DNA of 32,189 bases from Pirellulales bacterium (GTDB taxonomy: Bacteria > Planctomycetota > Planctomycetia > Pirellulales > Thermoguttaceae), in contig JAFGAY010000316.1 in assembly GCA_016933425.1 (NCBI GenBank), forward strand, positions 1 to 32,189, in the 5' to 3' direction. The notes below the pieces were generated by a model. It had not been told where the DNA came from. It did no database searches and saw only the letters and a list, made by a program, of their open reading frames with translations. Below, in pieces: positions 3,007 through 28,501 of this stretch. Numbering within the stretch: the first letter of the stretch is position 1; the number at the start of each line of letters is the position of its first letter. Position numbers and translations under genes: made by a program.

Positions 3007-3663
3007 TTATTGAGGTTCGTGGTTTTCTTCCAAAGCGGGCTCAACTTCGAGCGTATCGGCCGAAATGACGGCGCCGACGACCACTTTCGTGCCGGGTTTC
3101 AGCGAGTTGCCCGGCGTCAGCGCCAGATATTCCATGGTGCGTCCTTGCAGATTGAGTTGGATTTTGCCCACCCCCGCGCCTTCGGCCGGAATGGTCGTGT
3201 AGACCGTGCCGACGCGACCGATGGCGTTGGTGATGTGGGCGGTTCCTTCGGCGTGTAGCAACATGAGCGCCCGCATCACTCCGTAAACGGCGAACATGGC
3301 GGCCAATCCTGACGCGACCGCAATGACCATGGTCGGCGTCTTGGCGATGCCGGCCGACTCGGAAGCCAGCCCGGCGAGCCCGAAGAACGCCAACGCCGCG
3401 ACTACCGTGCGGAACGAGACGACTTTGAACAACCAGGTCGAATCGGCGTGGTCCGTGTCGGTGTGTCCGTCGGCGTGGCCGTGAAAATCGCTGTCGGCAT
3501 GAAAATCCCCGCCGAAATGGGCATCGCCGCCGACGTCTCCATCGAGATGGCCGGGAACGTCCAGGTCGAACGCATGGGCGCCGAAACCTATCAGCGCCAT
3601 GACGAACTGGAGGACCAAAATAGTCCCCCCCAGCGCCGCGCAGACCAAGAAAATCGTTGTCAT
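3007..3663 (-). CDS. NfeD/YuaF-like membrane protein, flotillin partner
   Basis: Start reset to MTTIFLVCAALGG at 3663; TM segments, His/Asp-rich loop and a C-terminal OB-like domain (IGRVGTVYTTIPAEGAGVGKIQLNLQGRTMEYLAL); adjacent to flotillin on the same strand. Confidence 0.85.
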   Translation of the reverse strand: MTTIFLVCAALGGTILVLQFVMALIGFGAHAFDLDVPGHLDGDVGGDAHFGGDFHADSDFHGHADGHTDTDHADSTWLFKVVSFRTVVAALAFFGLAGLASESAGIAKTPTMVIAVASGLAAMFAVYGVMRALMLLHAEGTAHITNAIGRVGTVYTTIPAEGAGVGKIQLNLQGRTMEYLALTPGNSLKPGTKVVVGAVISADTLEVEPALEENHEPQ

Positions 3664-3888
3664 GATTGTCACCCCCGAGAGGTCGAACGTGGGATAGGCC
3701 CACCTTTCCATTGGCTCTATTCGCTCGTCCGGGAGCAATCTTGGACCGGACCGACCCACGCTGGAGAACTAAACCATAGTAGCCTACGGAATGAGGCCGT
3801 GCAATCAATCGATTGGGCAAATCGAACACCCCATTTGCCGCTGCCGGGCTTCTTGTCGGCCGACGGCAGTTCGGTCAGAATGGGGGGA

Positions 3889-6396
3889 ATGATGGGGACA
3901 GACAAGCCACCGGAATCCACGAATCGTCACCAACGGCGCTACCAACCGCTGTTGGTCGTGTTGGTCCCTGTCGGCCTGGCCATTTTTGCCGATCGACATG
4001 CACGTTTGGGGCTGGCCTGCTGGTGGATTCTGGCGACCGCCGGGTGGATGGCCTGGCTCGTTCTTTGGCGGCTCGGCCGGAATCGGACGGCCTGTGCGTG
4101 TCTGCTGCTGGCCGCGGCGGGCACGGCCGGGGTGTGGCACCATCTGCAATGGTCGCGGTTCGCGGCCGACGATCTGGGCAACTTCGCCCAGCCGATCGCG
4201 AGACCCGTTTGTCTCGAAGCGACCGTCGAAAAAGGAAGCCGCCTGCTGCCGGCGCCTCCCGACGATCCCATGCGCATCATCCCCCAAGGCGACCGCACCC
4301 AACTCGAAATCCGCGCCGAGCGCATCCGCCACCGAACCGGCTGGCGATCGGCCTCGGGCCGCGCGACGTTGGTGGTCAACGATCGTCTGCCCGGGCTTCA
4401 CCCCGGCGATCGAATCCGCGTCTTCGGCCGATTGGCCGCGCCGGGCAGGGCAAACAACCCGGGCGAGCTCGATCGGGCGGACCACCTTCGCGGCGATCGC
4501 ATTCGCGCCGCGCTGCGCGCCGACTACCCGGCCTGCGTGACCCTCGTCGCCCGAGGCAGCGCGTGGCGGCCGAGTCGCTGGCTCGAATGCGTCCAGAACC
4601 AGGCAAGCGACGGACTCCAGCGGCGATTGGACCCGCGCTGGGCCGGCCTGGGATCGGCGCTGCTGCTGGGCAACCGCGAACAGCTCGAATCGGATCAGGC
4701 GACTGCCTTTCAAACGACCGGTATGGCCCATCTATTGGCCATTTCGGGGTTGCATGTGGGAATTGTCGTGCTCGCCGTGGGCTGGTTGCTGCGGATTTCA
4801 CGTGTTCCTCACACGCCGGCGGCCGTCATACTAGTCTTGGCAGCCGTGGGCTATACGTTGCTCACTGATGCCCAGCCGCCGGCCGTTCGGGCCTCAATCC
4901 TCGTCACAGTTCTGGCTCTTGGCATCGTGTTGGGACGGCACCCCGTGCGGTTTAATTCCCTGGCCGCCGCGGCGCTGATCGTGCTGGCTCTGAACCCGAG
5001 CGATTTGTTTCAACTTGGGCCGCAGCTTTCGTTTCTGGCCGTGGCGGCGTTGATGTGGATCTCACCAAATTGGATCGGCCCATGGAAGGGGCAGCGATCG
5101 AAGGAGCCGCTCAGCGCACTTATCGACCAAGGACGTCCGTGGTGGCAGCGCTGGTATCGTCGCAAGGGTCGGCAACTCCGGGAATTCGTGTTAGACTGGG
5201 CCGTGCTATGGGTGGTTCTTTCGCCGCTCATCATGGCGCGATTCCATCTGTTCTCTCTGGCGCCATTGATACTGAATGTGCTGCTCTTTGCCCCGGTCAT
5301 GGCGGCCCTGTCGAGTGGGTTTGTCGTATTGACCGTGGGCTGGCTCGTTCCACCACTGGGCGCCGCGGCGGCTTGGGTGTGCAACGGGAGCCTGGCGATC
5401 ATCGACTGGGGAATCAACGCGGCTCAGAACGTTCCTTGGAGCCACCGCTGGGTGCCCGGCCCGCCCGACTGGTGGCTGTGGGGATTTTACGCTGTGCTGC
5501 TCGTGGTGATGCTCCTTGGGCGGCGGCGGGTTGCGGGCCGCTGGGTTGTGGCCCTGGCCGCTGGTTGGGTTGGCGTTGGATTGCTTGCCGCCTCGTGGCC
5601 TGGCCGGGCGGAGCGTCTCGATTGCACGTTCGTGGCCGTCGGCCACGGTTTGTCCGTCGTTGTCGAGTTGCCCGACGGTCGCACGATGCTTTACGACGCC
5701 GGCGGCATGACTTCGCCGGAGGGAACCTCGCGGTCGATTGCCGGCTGCCTTTGGGAAAAGGGCCTTACGCGGATCGACGCCGTCGTCCTTTCGCACGCCG
5801 ACGCCGACCATTACAACGCGGTGCCGGGCCTGTTGAGGCGTTTCACGGTCGGAGTGGTTTATGTGCCGCCGGGCATGTTTTCGGACGAGAATCGGTCGCT
5901 CGCCGCTTTGCGAGAGGCCATTGCCGCGGCCGGCGTGCCTATCCGTGAACTGAAGGCGGCCGATCGACTGGCGGCCGGTCCGGCGTGCTCGGTCGAGGTG
6001 CTCCATCCGTCCCCGGATACCGCTTGGGCCAACGACAACGCCAACAGCCTTGTGCTGCTGGTCGAGTATGCCGGCCGGCGAATCCTGTTGCCGGGCGACC
6101 TCGAACCGCCGGGCATCGACGAACTACTGGCCAACGAACCAATCGACAGCGACGTCCTCTTGGTTCCCCATCACGGAAGCCGGCACAGCAGTCCGCCGGG
6201 ACTGATCGCCTGGTGCCGGCCCGACTGGGCCGTCATCAGCGGCAGTATAGCCAGACAACCCGAGGATACAGAAACCGTCTACCAAACGTCCGGTGTTCGG
6301 GTTCTACACACGGGCCGCGAGGGCGCTATTCGGATAGAGGTCGACCGGGCCGGAAATCTGGAAATCCAATCATTTAGGGGGGGTGTTCGCAAATGA
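3889..6396 (+). CDS. comEC: ComEC/Rec2-family DNA internalization protein
   Basis: Multi-TM competence domain (LLAISGLHVGIVVLAVGWLLR) plus C-terminal metallo-beta-lactamase-like domain (VLSHADADHYNAVPGLL, VPHHGSRHS). The ORF opens at 3448, but the upstream part is antisense to the NfeD-like gene; start set at 3889/3892. Confidence 0.92.
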   Translation: MMGTDKPPESTNRHQRRYQPLLVVLVPVGLAIFADRHARLGLACWWILATAGWMAWLVLWRLGRNRTACACLLLAAAGTAGVWHHLQWSRFAADDLGNFAQPIARPVCLEATVEKGSRLLPAPPDDPMRIIPQGDRTQLEIRAERIRHRTGWRSASGRATLVVNDRLPGLHPGDRIRVFGRLAAPGRANNPGELDRADHLRGDRIRAALRADYPACVTLVARGSAWRPSRWLECVQNQASDGLQRRLDPRWAGLGSALLLGNREQLESDQATAFQTTGMAHLLAISGLHVGIVVLAVGWLLRISRVPHTPAAVILVLAAVGYTLLTDAQPPAVRASILVTVLALGIVLGRHPVRFNSLAAAALIVLALNPSDLFQLGPQLSFLAVAALMWISPNWIGPWKGQRSKEPLSALIDQGRPWWQRWYRRKGRQLREFVLDWAVLWVVLSPLIMARFHLFSLAPLILNVLLFAPVMAALSSGFVVLTVGWLVPPLGAAAAWVCNGSLAIIDWGINAAQNVPWSHRWVPGPPDWWLWGFYAVLLVVMLLGRRRVAGRWVVALAAGWVGVGLLAASWPGRAERLDCTFVAVGHGLSVVVELPDGRTMLYDAGGMTSPEGTSRSIAGCLWEKGLTRIDAVVLSHADADHYNAVPGLLRRFTVGVVYVPPGMFSDENRSLAALREAIAAAGVPIRELKAADRLAAGPACSVEVLHPSPDTAWANDNANSLVLLVEYAGRRILLPGDLEPPGIDELLANEPIDSDVLLVPHHGSRHSSPPGLIAWCRPDWAVISGSIARQPEDTETVYQTSGVRVLHTGREGAIRIEVDRAGNLEIQSFRGGVRK

Positions 6397-6465: not shown

Positions 6466-6536
6466 GTAGGCAGGGTCATAAACCGGCGAAAATCGACCTA
6501 AATGTTTTTCCACCGACGGGTTACAACCCGGCCTAC
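6466..6536. repeat. Inverted pair of GTAG-headed REP-like units (one decayed)
   Basis: + strand GTAGGCAGGGTCATAAACCGGCG (6466-6488); - strand GTAGGCCGGGTTGTAACCCG (6536 to 6517). Same family as 28479-28501. Confidence 0.65.
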
Positions 6537-6563
6537 ATTCTCGGAAAATCGTTAGTTTAAAAA

Positions 6564-6588
6564 CCCCAAATCCCAAATCCCAAATCCC
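6564..6588 (-). repeat. CCCAAAT heptamer repeat; G4 consensus on the minus strand
   Basis: CCCCAAATCCCAAATCCCAAATCCC, exact 7-bp period, four C-tracts of at least 3. Confidence 0.8.
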
Positions 6589-6710
6589 ATTTCTTCCCAC
6601 CGACCGATTACCCGTTGCATTGTCCGGCCGACCTGCTACACTGACGTTTCTAGGGTAAGTTGGTAACAATAGTACGTGGAATTTTTTTGTAGAGACGGTG
6701 AGAGGAACGT

Positions 6711-6724
6711 GCTTCGGGAGAAGC
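6711..6724 (+). promoter_or_regulatory. rpsO leader stem-loop with GNRA-type loop
   Basis: GCTTC-GGGA-GAAGC, 20 nt upstream of an SD-like GGAGG and 40 nt upstream of the rpsO ATG. Confidence 0.4.
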
Positions 6725-6763
6725 GTCTTCGTGCCGGTTGACTTGGAGGATTCGCGGTAAGCG

Positions 6764-7033
6764 ATGACCATCACCAGAGAGCAAAAAAGAGAAGTGATCG
6801 ACCAGTTCCGGCTGAAGGACGACGACACCGGCAGCCCGGAGGTGCAGATTGCCATTCTGACGACTCGGATCAATGGGTTGACGCAGCATTTGCAGACCCA
6901 TCGCAAGGATTTCGCGGGTCGTCGGGGACTGCTGATGCTGGTGAGCCGTCGACGCAGTTTGCTGGATTACCTCAAGAAGGTTAATCCCCAGCGTTATCTG
7001 GACGCCATTCAACGCCTGGGAATCCGCAAGTAG
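6764..7033 (+). CDS. rpsO: 30S ribosomal protein S15
   Basis: 89 aa, [72 protein letters not shown]...; followed by pnp. Confidence 0.98.
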
Positions 7034-7339: not shown

Positions 7340-9460
7340 GTGAAAGTACGTGTAGAAAAACAAATCGGCGCCAGTGTTTTCTCGATGGAAACCGGCCAGT
7401 TGGCCAAGCAGGCGGCGGGAAGCTGCCTGGTGCGCTATGGAGATACGGTCGTGCTGTGCACGGCCAGTACGGGCCCCCCGCGGCCCGGCATCGACTTTTT
7501 TCCCCTCTCGTGCGATTATCGCGAGCGGGTGGCGGCGGCGGGCAAGTTTCCCGGCGGCTTTTTAAAACGCGAGGGGCGGCCCACCATGAAGGAAACGCTC
7601 ACCTCGCGGTTGATCGACCGCCCCATCCGGCCGCTGTTTCCCGAATGGTTCCACGACGAAGTCCAATGCCAGGCGTTTGTTCTGGCCAGCGATCGGCAAA
7701 ACGACGGCGACGTTCTGGCGATGAGCGGCGCGGCCACCGCGCTGGCCCTGTCGCCCTTGCCGTTCTTGGGGCCCTTGGCCTCCATCCGCCTTGGATACGT
7801 CGACGGTCAGTTCATCCCGTTTCCCACCCAGGACGATCTCGAGGAAAGCGACCTTGATCTGATTATCTCGGGCAGCAAGGACGCCGTGTTGATGATCGAG
7901 GGCTTTGCCCGCGAGTTGTCCGAGGATCTGATGGCCGAAGCGGTCATGCAGGCCCACGAATACATTCGCCAGATCTGCGATTTGCAAATCGAGCTGGCTG
8001 AGAAAGCGGGCGTCCAGAAGGCCGCCTACGAGGTTCCCGAACCCGACGCGCTGCGCGAAACGATCCGCGAGAAATACTACGATGCGTTGTTCGCGGCCAA
8101 GCGGACCGAGGGCAAACTTGCCCGGGCCGAAGCATGCGACGCGGTGAAAGCCAGGGCCGTCCAGGAATTGATTCCCGATCCGGCAGCCGAAGACGCCATT
8201 GACATGGCGCGGTTCAAGTCGATCTGGCACGAGCTCGAAGCGCAAGTTATCCGCGACCAGATCCTCTCGGGCACGCGGCCCGACGGCCGGGGAACCAAGG
8301 AACTCCGCGAGATCACGTGCGAGGTCGATCTTCTGCCCCGGGTGCACGGTTCCGCCCTGTTCCAACGCGGTGAAACCCAATCGTTGGTAACCGTCACGCT
8401 GGGCACGGGCCGCGACGAGCAGCGGGTCGACGGGTTGATCGAGGAATACACGAAGAAATTCATGCTCGACTACTACTTCCCGCCGTTCTCGGTCGGAGAG
8501 GTTCGGCCCATCCGAGGACCCGGCCGCCGGGAGATCGGCCACGGGGCCTTGGCCGAGCGGAGCGTCAAGCCGGTGCTGCCCGCCGCCGACGAATTTCCCT
8601 ACACGATCCGCATCATTTCCGACATCCTCGAATCGAACGGTTCCAGTTCGATGGCCAGTGTTTGCGCCGCGACGCTCGGGCTGATGGCCGCCGGGGTGCA
8701 AATCAGCAATCCCGTGGCCGGCATCTCCGTCGGTCTGGTCAAGAACGACGACCGCTGGGTTCTGCTGACCGACATCATCGGCGACGAAGATCATTTCGGC
8801 GACATGGATTTCAAGATCGCCGGCACGCAGAACGGCATCACGGGCATTCAGCTCGATCTGAAGACCAACGGGATCAGCGAGGAAATTATCCGCGCCACGC
8901 TCGTCCAATCGCGCGAGGCCCGAATCGAAATCCTCCGCAAGATGCTCACGGCCATTCCGCAGCCCAGACCGGAAATTTCCCACTGGGCGCCGCGATTGCT
9001 GCGCACGCACATTGATCCCGAAAAGATCGGCTTGCTGATCGGGCCCGGTGGAAAGATGATCCGGTCGATCCAGGAAGAAACCGGCGCGTCGATCGACGTC
9101 GAGGACGACGGCACCGTGACGATCGCCTCGACCGATTCCGAGGGAGCCAAGGAAGCGCTGGCCCGGGTCGAAGCGCTCACCGCGTCGGTCGAAGTCGGCC
9201 GGATTTATCACGGCCGCGTCACCAGCGTGAAGGACTTCGGCGCGTTTATCGAGATCCTGCCCGGCAAGGACGGACTCTGCCACATCAGCGAGCTGGCCGA
9301 GGGTTACGTGGCCAGCGTCGGCGACGTGTGCAAGGTCGGCGACAAGCTCGACGTCAAGGTCATCTCGATCGACGAACAAGACCGCGTCAAACTGAGCCGC
9401 AAGGCGGTGCTGGCCGAGGAGAAAAACGCAAAGACCGGCGCCAACGGCGACGGAGTGTAG
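7340..9460 (+). CDS. pnp: Polyribonucleotide nucleotidyltransferase (PNPase)
   Basis: Two RNase PH-like domains, KH domain (IGLLIGPGGKMIRSIQEETGASIDVEDDG) and S1 domain (GRIYHGRVTSVKDFGAFIEILPGKDGLCHISELA). Confidence 0.98.
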   Translation: MKVRVEKQIGASVFSMETGQLAKQAAGSCLVRYGDTVVLCTASTGPPRPGIDFFPLSCDYRERVAAAGKFPGGFLKREGRPTMKETLTSRLIDRPIRPLFPEWFHDEVQCQAFVLASDRQNDGDVLAMSGAATALALSPLPFLGPLASIRLGYVDGQFIPFPTQDDLEESDLDLIISGSKDAVLMIEGFARELSEDLMAEAVMQAHEYIRQICDLQIELAEKAGVQKAAYEVPEPDALRETIREKYYDALFAAKRTEGKLARAEACDAVKARAVQELIPDPAAEDAIDMARFKSIWHELEAQVIRDQILSGTRPDGRGTKELREITCEVDLLPRVHGSALFQRGETQSLVTVTLGTGRDEQRVDGLIEEYTKKFMLDYYFPPFSVGEVRPIRGPGRREIGHGALAERSVKPVLPAADEFPYTIRIISDILESNGSSSMASVCAATLGLMAAGVQISNPVAGISVGLVKNDDRWVLLTDIIGDEDHFGDMDFKIAGTQNGITGIQLDLKTNGISEEIIRATLVQSREARIEILRKMLTAIPQPRPEISHWAPRLLRTHIDPEKIGLLIGPGGKMIRSIQEETGASIDVEDDGTVTIASTDSEGAKEALARVEALTASVEVGRIYHGRVTSVKDFGAFIEILPGKDGLCHISELAEGYVASVGDVCKVGDKLDVKVISIDEQDRVKLSRKAVLAEEKNAKTGANGDGV

Positions 9461-9670: not shown

Positions 9671-9734
9671 CTTCGTGCTCTTCGCGCCCTTCGTGGTGAA
9701 AAAAGAAACCACGAAGGACGCAAAGGACGCGAAG
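9671..9734. repeat. Inverted pair of period-9 microrepeats abutting a start codon
   Basis: CTTCGTGCTCTTCGCGCCCTTCGTGG - TGAAAAAAGAAA - CCACGAAGGACGCAAAGGACGCGAAG; arms match at 21 of 26 positions; ATG at 9736. Confidence 0.75.
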
Positions 9735-12139: not shown

Positions 12140-12168
12140 CTTCGTGCTCTTCGTGACCTTTGTGGTCA
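12140..12168 (-). repeat. Period-9 microrepeat (TTCGTGCTC/TTCGTGACC/TTTGTGGTC)
   Basis: TTCGTG at 12141 and 12150, TTTGTG at 12159; same family as 9671-9734 and 18897-18924. Confidence 0.75.
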
Positions 12169-12201
12169 GAAACCGTCGTGCATGAAGCCTGGGCATTTCC
12201 C

Positions 12202-14125: not shown

Positions 14126-14157
14126 TGTTCCCGGTTTTGCGGTGTACCCTGTGACAT

Positions 14158-14181
14158 GGAGGGCCGCGCTCCGTCGTGGCC
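14158..14181. repeat. GGAG-headed palindromic REP-like unit, copy 1
   Basis: GGAG-GGCCGCG-CTCCGT-CGTGGCC; 23 of 24 nt identical to 21360-21383. Confidence 0.75.
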
Positions 14182-18929: not shown

Positions 18930-20768
18930 ATGGGCTACCGCACGCTCCGCGAGTGCGTCGACGATTTGGCGGCGACAGGCCAATTGGTCCGCGTCGACGC
19001 GCCCATCGATCCACGGCTTGAAATGGCCGAAATTCAACGCCGCGTATTTCGCACCGCCGGGCCGGCGATTTATTTCGCCAACGTGCGCGGCTGCCAATTT
19101 CCCATGGTGAGCAACTTGTTTGGCGCCATGGAGCGGATGCGGTATCTTTTCCGCGACGCGCTCGACACGCTGTCCCGGCTGGTCAGACTTCAAGTCGACC
19201 CGGCCGATCTGCTTCGACGACCGCGAATGTATCTCGACGCGCCGCGCGGCGCGTGGCACAGTCGGCCGCGGCGCGTGCGCGGCGGACCGGTGCTGGCCCA
19301 TCAAACAACGATCGGCCAATTGCCCCAGTTGGTCAGTTGGCCGGACGACGGAGGCGCTTACGTCACGCTGCCGATCGTCTACACGGAGGATCCCGATCGC
19401 CCCGGAGTGACTCACTCGAACCTGGGCATGTACCGCGTGCAGCTTTCCGGCGGACAATATCGGCCCGACGAGGAAGTCGGCATGCACTATCAGATTCACC
19501 GCGGCATCGAGGCCCATCACGCGGCCGCGCTGCGACGCGGCGAGCCGCTTCGGGTCAATGTGCACATCGGCGGGCCGCCGGCGCTGGCGGTGGCGGCCGT
19601 CATGCCGCTGCCCGAGGGCGTGAGCGAACTGGCGATGGCCGGCGTGCTCGGCGGACACCGCGTGCCGATGATCGTCGGACGCGAGCCGCTGCCGATCGCG
19701 GCCGAAGCCGATTTTTGCATCTGCGGCACGCTGGATCCCAACCGCCGGCTGCCCGAGGGACCGTTTGGCGACCACCTGGGTTATTACAGCTTGGCGCACG
19801 CATTTCCCGTGCTTCGCGTGGATCGGGTGTATCACCGGGAGGGAGCCATTTGGCCGTTCACGGTCGTCGGCCGCCCGCCACAAGAAGACTCGATCTTCGC
19901 CGAGCTGATTCACGAGATTTCAGCCCCGGCCATTGCCGAAACGATTCCCGGGGTGCGTGCCGTCCACGCGGTCGAGGCGGCCGGGGTCCACCCGCTGTTG
20001 CTGGCGCTGGGCAGCGAGCGGTACTTGCCCCAGGAGCCGCGCCGGCCGCGCGAGTTGCTGACCCAGGCCAACGCGATCCTGGGACGCGGCCAGCTTTCGC
20101 TGGCAAAATACGTCTGGATCGCGGCAGCCGAGGACGATCCGACGCTCGACGTTCGCCGGGTCGACGCTTTTCTGACGCACGTTCTGGCCCGGATCGACTG
20201 GCGGCGCGACGTCCATTTCCAGACGCAAACCACGATCGACACGCTCGACTACAGCGGCCATGGACTGTGCGCCGGTTCGAAAGTCGTTATCGCGGCGGCC
20301 GGCGGTCCACAACGCGAGTTGCCCGCGGAGTTGCCCGACGATCTCGCGCTCGATCCCCGGCGGGGCATCGCCGATCCGCGGGTAGCGATGGCCGGCGTGC
20401 TGGTCGTCCGCGGGCCCGACTATGCGCACGATCGCGAGGCGGTCGCCCATTGGGCCGCGTCGCTCGATCGGCGCGCGAGCATCAACCGGTTTCCGCTCGT
20501 TGTCGTGGTCGACGACGCCGAATTTACGGCCCGAAACCTGGACAACCTGCTTTGGGTCACCTTCACCCGAAGCAACCCGGCGGCCGACGTCCACGGGATC
20601 GAGTCGTTCGTCGAAGACAAGCACTGGGGCTGTCGGGGCTCGTTGGTGATCGACGCCCGGACCAAATCGCACCACGCCCCGCCGCTGGTCGAGGACCCGG
20701 AGATCACGCGCCGCGTCGACCGGTTGGCCGCGCCCGGCGGACCGCTGCATGGGGTGATTGGGAATTAG
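18930..20768 (+). CDS. UbiD-family decarboxylase
   Basis: MGYRTLRECVDDLAATGQLVRVDAPIDPRLEMAEIQRRV, THSNLGMYRVQ, VNVHIGGPPALAVAAVMPLPEGVSEL, EGPFGDHLGYY are typical of UbiD. Confidence 0.93.
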   Translation: MGYRTLRECVDDLAATGQLVRVDAPIDPRLEMAEIQRRVFRTAGPAIYFANVRGCQFPMVSNLFGAMERMRYLFRDALDTLSRLVRLQVDPADLLRRPRMYLDAPRGAWHSRPRRVRGGPVLAHQTTIGQLPQLVSWPDDGGAYVTLPIVYTEDPDRPGVTHSNLGMYRVQLSGGQYRPDEEVGMHYQIHRGIEAHHAAALRRGEPLRVNVHIGGPPALAVAAVMPLPEGVSELAMAGVLGGHRVPMIVGREPLPIAAEADFCICGTLDPNRRLPEGPFGDHLGYYSLAHAFPVLRVDRVYHREGAIWPFTVVGRPPQEDSIFAELIHEISAPAIAETIPGVRAVHAVEAAGVHPLLLALGSERYLPQEPRRPRELLTQANAILGRGQLSLAKYVWIAAAEDDPTLDVRRVDAFLTHVLARIDWRRDVHFQTQTTIDTLDYSGHGLCAGSKVVIAAAGGPQRELPAELPDDLALDPRRGIADPRVAMAGVLVVRGPDYAHDREAVAHWAASLDRRASINRFPLVVVVDDAEFTARNLDNLLWVTFTRSNPAADVHGIESFVEDKHWGCRGSLVIDARTKSHHAPPLVEDPEITRRVDRLAAPGGPLHGVIGN

Positions 20769-20804
20769 GGATTTGGGGATTTAGGGATTTGGGGGGCGGG
20801 GGGT
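20768..20804 (+). repeat. GGGATTT repeat and G-run fitting the G4 consensus on the plus strand
   Basis: GGGATTTGGGGATTTAGGGATTTGGGGGGCGGGGGG between convergent ubiD and dgkA. Confidence 0.8.
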
Positions 20805-21221: not shown

Positions 21222-21359
21222 GGCAACGGCCTTGCTAGGGAGACGATTCGCGCGGTCACGGCGTGCCACCAGGATAACCATCCCCAGGTCCCCAAACAAG
21301 CGGCACCAGGTTTCCGGAGGCAGTAACGGATTATGGGTCTGCGGTATGGGGTATGCGCT

Positions 21360-21383
21360 GGAGGGCCACGCTCCGTCGTGGCC
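21360..21383. repeat. GGAG-headed palindromic REP-like unit, copy 2
   Basis: GGAG-GGCCACG-CTCCGT-CGTGGCC; perfect 7-bp arms, 6-nt loop. Confidence 0.75.
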
Positions 21384-28478: not shown

Positions 28479-28501
28479 GTAGGCCGGGTCGTGACCCGGC
28501 G
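28479..28501. repeat. GTAG-headed palindromic REP-like unit
   Basis: GTAGGCCGGGTCGTGACCCGGCG; GCCGGGTC (28483-28490) / GACCCGGC (28493-28500), perfect 8-bp arms with GT centre. Confidence 0.75.

Follow-up and report, generated by a model that had tools for sequence, protein, structure and literature searches.

The segment at positions 6466–6536 of the window, by which we mean the whole analysed stretch of 32,189 nucleotides, is with high confidence a worn copy from a REP family tagged with GTAG. Its two units face each other head-to-head (a REPIN, the basic BIME unit), and it is most likely a non-autonomous mobile element. The window is contig C322 of G000, a 3.73-Mb draft genome (406 contigs, 89% complete). 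A first, sequence-only reading had assigned the pair to the REP/BIME type of elements associated with RAYT proteins, and this assignment is supported by the conservation of the tag, by the paired layout and by a RAYT gene bordered by the same palindrome in a relative. We accept membership of the REP/REPIN class from this architecture and from the RAYT association in a relative; this acceptance does not extend to mobility.

Structure of the element and of its repeat family

The entire dimer is 71 bp long, with the GTAG tags on the outside. The left arm (6466–6487, plus strand, GTAGGCAGGGTCATAAACCGGC) is a GTAG-tagged palindrome with two mismatches to the family consensus GTAGGCCGGGTNNNNACCCGGC, in agreement with the decayed plus-strand unit previously placed at 6466–6488. 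The right arm (6515–6536, minus strand, GTAGGCCGGGTTGTAACCCGTC) is a nearly intact GTAG-tagged palindrome with one mismatch. It had been described as an intact unit at 6536–6517; the site and the 20 nt quoted at the time are exact, but 'intact' was slightly generous because nt 21 deviates from the consensus. Between the arms lies a spacer of 27 nt (6488–6514, plus strand, GAAAATCGACCTAAATGTTTTTCCACC) that resembles those of 71-bp head-to-head units on three other contigs of the genome; the similarity score was reached by none of 300 shuffles for C202 and C399 and by one of 300 for C38. The similarity to spacers of the relative G028 was no higher than that of shuffles. As single-stranded DNA, the plus strand of 6466–6536 is predicted to form one long imperfect hairpin (−15.1 kcal/mol, z = −4.1), and intact paired units of the family are predicted to fold more strongly than the window copy (−23 to −31 kcal/mol).

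A second copy of the palindrome, single and exact, is present at 28479–28500 (plus strand, GTAGGCCGGGTCGTGACCCGGC), between two minus-strand open frames. Like the pair at 6466–6536, it is intergenic. With up to three mismatches allowed, the 20-mer of the right arm has two matches in the window (the second at 28479–28498) and none in 100 dinucleotide-preserving shuffles.

The genome search that the sequence-only reading had proposed for the palindrome recovered 49 exact matches to the 22-mer GTAGGCCGGGTNNNNACCCGGC, spread over many contigs, and none to the reversed pattern. The loose pattern GTAGGNNGGGTNNNNACCCG gave 61 matches genome-wide against one for its reversed control, and tolerance of up to three mismatches gave 222 against 23 for the control, the figure of 222 including opposite-strand readings of the same sites. 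Conservation of GTAG among copies had also been expected. We assessed it without bias by searching for the core CCGGGTNNNNACCCGG alone, with no tag required, and an intact, correctly placed GTAGG accompanies 51 of the 73 cores retrieved (chance below 1% per core). A pyrimidine (C or T) stands directly 5′ of GTAG in 54 of 60 copies, and base preferences fade sharply farther upstream. The loop-edge bases are complementary in 55 of 61 copies, with C-G predominating; 45.9 are expected in shuffles and none of 10000 shuffles reached the observed value.

Head-to-head pairing, already recognized in the window copy as a trait of REP/BIME elements, prevails wherever copies are paired. We examined 65 distinct near-intact copies for partners within 130 nt: 37 are paired head-to-head and 4 head-to-tail, 24 are unpaired and none is tail-to-tail. 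The lengths of the head-to-head units cluster at 59, 62 and 71 bp.

Distribution of the family in Pirellulales

Of the 397 Pirellulales genomes searched, nine contain the exact 22-mer, all from the same taxonomic family as the host of the window, and its distribution is patchy. Five genomes harbour many exact copies (82 in G252, 49 in G000, 47 in G029, 38 in G006 and 34 in G007) and four carry few (8 in G028, 5 in G015, 2 in G032 and 1 in G001). When loops of 3–7 nt are permitted, the count rises to 18 in G028 and to 85 in G252. The genomes G001 and G002, of the same genus, contain one and no exact copy, respectively. The arms are kept across genera and the spacers are genome-specific.

A RAYT gene framed by the palindrome in a relative

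We searched relatives for RAYT genes with a profile built from two RAYTs and subsequently with the G028 protein as query; PF01797 was rejected as sole detector because it missed one of the two RAYTs of G000. The sequence-only reading had suggested looking for a RAYT gene with this palindrome in its flanks, and such a gene exists in G028 (MAG Pirellulales bacterium CSMAG_3026), but no cognate was found in the genome of the window. The G028 gene, on contig C224, encodes a protein of 181 aa and is bordered directly on both sides by dimers of the window palindrome family, forming the one REPtron found for this family. The protein scores 189.8 bits against the NCBIfam model REP_Tyr_transpos (cut-off 80) and aligns with E. 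coli TnpA-REP (4ER8; E = 2.5e-45) over the HLH and catalytic-tyrosine regions. The units of G028 are mostly heterodimers, in which an arm with a 4-nt loop, the usual loop length in G000 and identical to the G000 type, is combined with an arm with a 5-nt loop; the match of the REPtron is therefore to the family and not to each copy. More broadly, GTRG-headed palindromes occur in the flanks of 88 of 106 related RAYT loci, with stems varying by locus, which indicates that the rule of tag and palindrome applies to the whole group. RAYT loci flanked by GTRG-headed palindromes correspond to the REPtron pattern described earlier (PMC3733652, PMC2817692).

The genome of the window encodes two RAYTs, one on C213 (L035) flanked by GTAGGTCAGGCTGTGCCTGAC and one on C120 (L114) flanked by GTAGGTCAGGCACCCCGTGCCTGAC, both of TCAGGC-stem families. 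Each has its own GTAG palindrome, with stems TCAGGCTGTGCCTGA and TCAGGCACCCCGTGCCTGA, respectively. The C213-type palindromes are also found at many other sites, near copies of the window family. In this 89% complete genome, no RAYT or IS200-like gene was found with GTAGGCCGGGT family palindromes on both sides, nor was one flanked in this way by the window family found in the four other high-copy relatives; the RAYT of one of them, G252, is flanked by palindromes of another stem. A strongly diverged cognate lying away from copies of the family would escape this search. Weak Y1 candidates and IS200-like Y1 genes of G000, G006, G007, G015, G029 and G032 also had no member of the window family beside them, among loci whose flanks were retrieved, with the exception of the IS200-like gene L032 of G000. 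We rejected L032 as the mobiliser: it has a decayed copy roughly 300 bp upstream, on one side only, and from the copy density we estimate that chance alone would produce about 0.5 neighbours of this kind. Two other IS200-like genes of G000 are accompanied by different repeats, L031 on C337 by surrounding GTCCCGTAGGGAC-type palindromes and L034 on C56 by GTAGTTGCCAAACCGG...CCGGTGGGG repeats on both sides.

We estimate the chance that incompleteness alone explains the missing RAYT in all five genomes at about 1e-5 (0.11 × 0.06 × 0.22 × 0.07 × 0.13 for G000, G006, G007, G029 and G252), a value to be read with the caveat that draft assemblies drop repeat-flanked genes more often than others. Strains carrying a RAYT have been reported to contain about tenfold more REPs (Nunvar et al., PMC2817692); here, G028, which bears the RAYT, is poorer in exact copies than the five genomes in which no cognate RAYT was found. 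Other species are known to have lost REPtrons, and in E. coli strains this happened by deletion (PMC3733652). The absence of a cognate RAYT thus does not disqualify the family from the class, and the deletions in E. coli strains give a reading by loss a precedent. What is unusual is the apparent separation of the repeats from their RAYT. As a tentative explanation, to which we give about one chance in four, a REPIN population numbering 34–85 exact copies, in at least five genomes from four genera, might outlive a lost cognate RAYT or be moved in trans by one whose own flanks carry REPs of another stem. If true, either process would break the usual coupling of one RAYT to one REP.

Genomic context and alternative explanations

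The element is located 70 nt after the stop of a ComEC/Rec2-type competence gene (comEC, 3448–6396, plus strand). The gene rpsO, which encodes ribosomal protein S15 (6764–7033, plus strand) and is followed by pnp (7340–9460), begins 227 nt beyond the element. A promoter-like TTGCAT-N16-TACACT, read by eye, occupies 6615–6642 on the plus strand, outside the element; similar forms, also identified by eye, occur at the same position ahead of rpsO in many relatives, and a consensus scan reported none. The rpsO leader (6637–6766) is partly conserved in 13 Pirellulales genomes, with a hairpin-like stretch GTGCTTCG...GAAGC and with GGTAGCAGATG at the start codon. It has no Rfam match and represents a candidate S15 autoregulatory leader. 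The sequence-only reading had presented the pair as lying upstream of rpsO, which is correct for its position but not for a functional tie, since the conserved promoter and leader start downstream of the element. At this locus, no syntenic close relative offered an alignable empty site, synteny upstream of rpsO being lost in the closest relatives.

Other repeats are visible in the window. Runs of the heptamer AATCCCA occur at 6560–6586 and, inverted, at 20756–20782, and are also found near other family copies in the genome. Repeats of the CTTCGTG...TTCGTGGT type lie at 9671–9734 and 12140–12172, some of them forming an inverted pair separated by 10 nt, and a 49-nt repeat containing GGAGGGCCRCGCTCCGTCGTGGCC is present at 14133–14181 and 21335–21383 (76% identical).

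This setting raises the question of whether the pair is instead a functional RNA or DNA element, either a terminator or 3′-end stabiliser of comEC or a regulatory part of rpsO. It does lie in an intergenic gap shortly after comEC and is predicted to be able to fold, and REPs of other bacteria frequently follow genes and can shield the ends of mRNAs (PMC3733652). We nevertheless consider such a role improbable. Terminator and Rfam searches of the element returned nothing, the arms of the window copy are decayed and REPIN units of the same kind occupy dozens of unrelated sites. The element is absent from the pre-rpsO regions of relatives, and the DNA that the window has in common with G002 and G015 begins near 6604, past the element, so that we see no sign of its participation in rpsO control and rejected it as a part of rpsO regulation.

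Short inverted repeats, high copy number and patchy distribution would also suit plain inverted-repeat MITEs of a conventional insertion sequence unconnected to RAYTs, and the decayed copy upstream of L032 could be cited in this sense, but that neighbour is one-sided and at the level expected by chance. Every arm forms a palindrome of its own and carries GTAG on one side only, inspection by eye reveals no evident target duplication among the listed copies, and the G028 RAYT gene has this palindrome on both sides; these features make a MITE origin very improbable. Chance similarity or an assembly artefact, for which only the GC-rich background speaks, has practically no probability left, being refuted by reversed-pattern controls with 0–1 matches against 49–61 and by the independent occurrence of the family in several genomes of the order.

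Possible mechanism and significance

By analogy with characterized systems, the two tagged palindromes would fold in single-stranded DNA such as the lagging-strand template; a RAYT (TnpA-REP, a Y1 HUH nuclease) would recognize GTAG and the hairpin and cut alongside, and the unit would then be copied to a new, usually non-coding site. Cleavage and mobilisation are inferred here from studies of the RAYTs of E. coli, S. maltophilia and Marinomonas; the recognition of single-stranded GTAG plus hairpin, the nicking and the copying are taken from the biochemistry of other RAYTs (PMC8266576). The worn window copy is probably now an inert sequence after comEC. The new family and its REPtron enlarge the set of REP/RAYT systems in planctomycetes, which have received little study. 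Should the high-copy genomes truly lack the RAYT, they would be natural cases in which to ask whether REPIN populations endure and retain their sequence without a transposase.

Comparison with known REP systems

The family is new in sequence but of a known kind, and we set it beside the 24 GTAG families of Di Nocera et al. by class description. GTAG-tagged REPs are reported from the PVC superphylum, in R. baltica and O. terrae (Di Nocera et al., 2013; PMC3733652), and share with the present family the GTAG tag, a stem of 6–9 bp, a short loop, head-to-head dimers and REPtrons. The REPINs or REP doublets of Pseudomonas fluorescens SBW25 (Bertels and Rainey, 2011; PMC3116915) are likewise inverted tagged palindromes with the tags outside, fixed spacing classes and many dispersed copies, but their palindrome differs, and here most host genomes are devoid of a detected cognate RAYT. 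The E. coli REP/BIME system with TnpA-REP (4ER8) resembles ours by the GTAG tag and by a RAYT gene placed between inverted REP pairs, the G028 protein being a clear homologue, whereas the palindrome of the window family is near-perfect and lacks the irregular stem needed by E. coli TnpA-REP (PMC8266576). With the SMAG repeats of the Stenotrophomonas maltophilia REPtron Sm the family shares a GTAG placed immediately before a perfect short-loop palindrome; the stem and loop sequences differ from those of SMAG repeats, and SMAG belongs to a group 3 RAYT (PMC8266576), whereas the G028 RAYT, judged from its sequence, resembles the E. coli protein.
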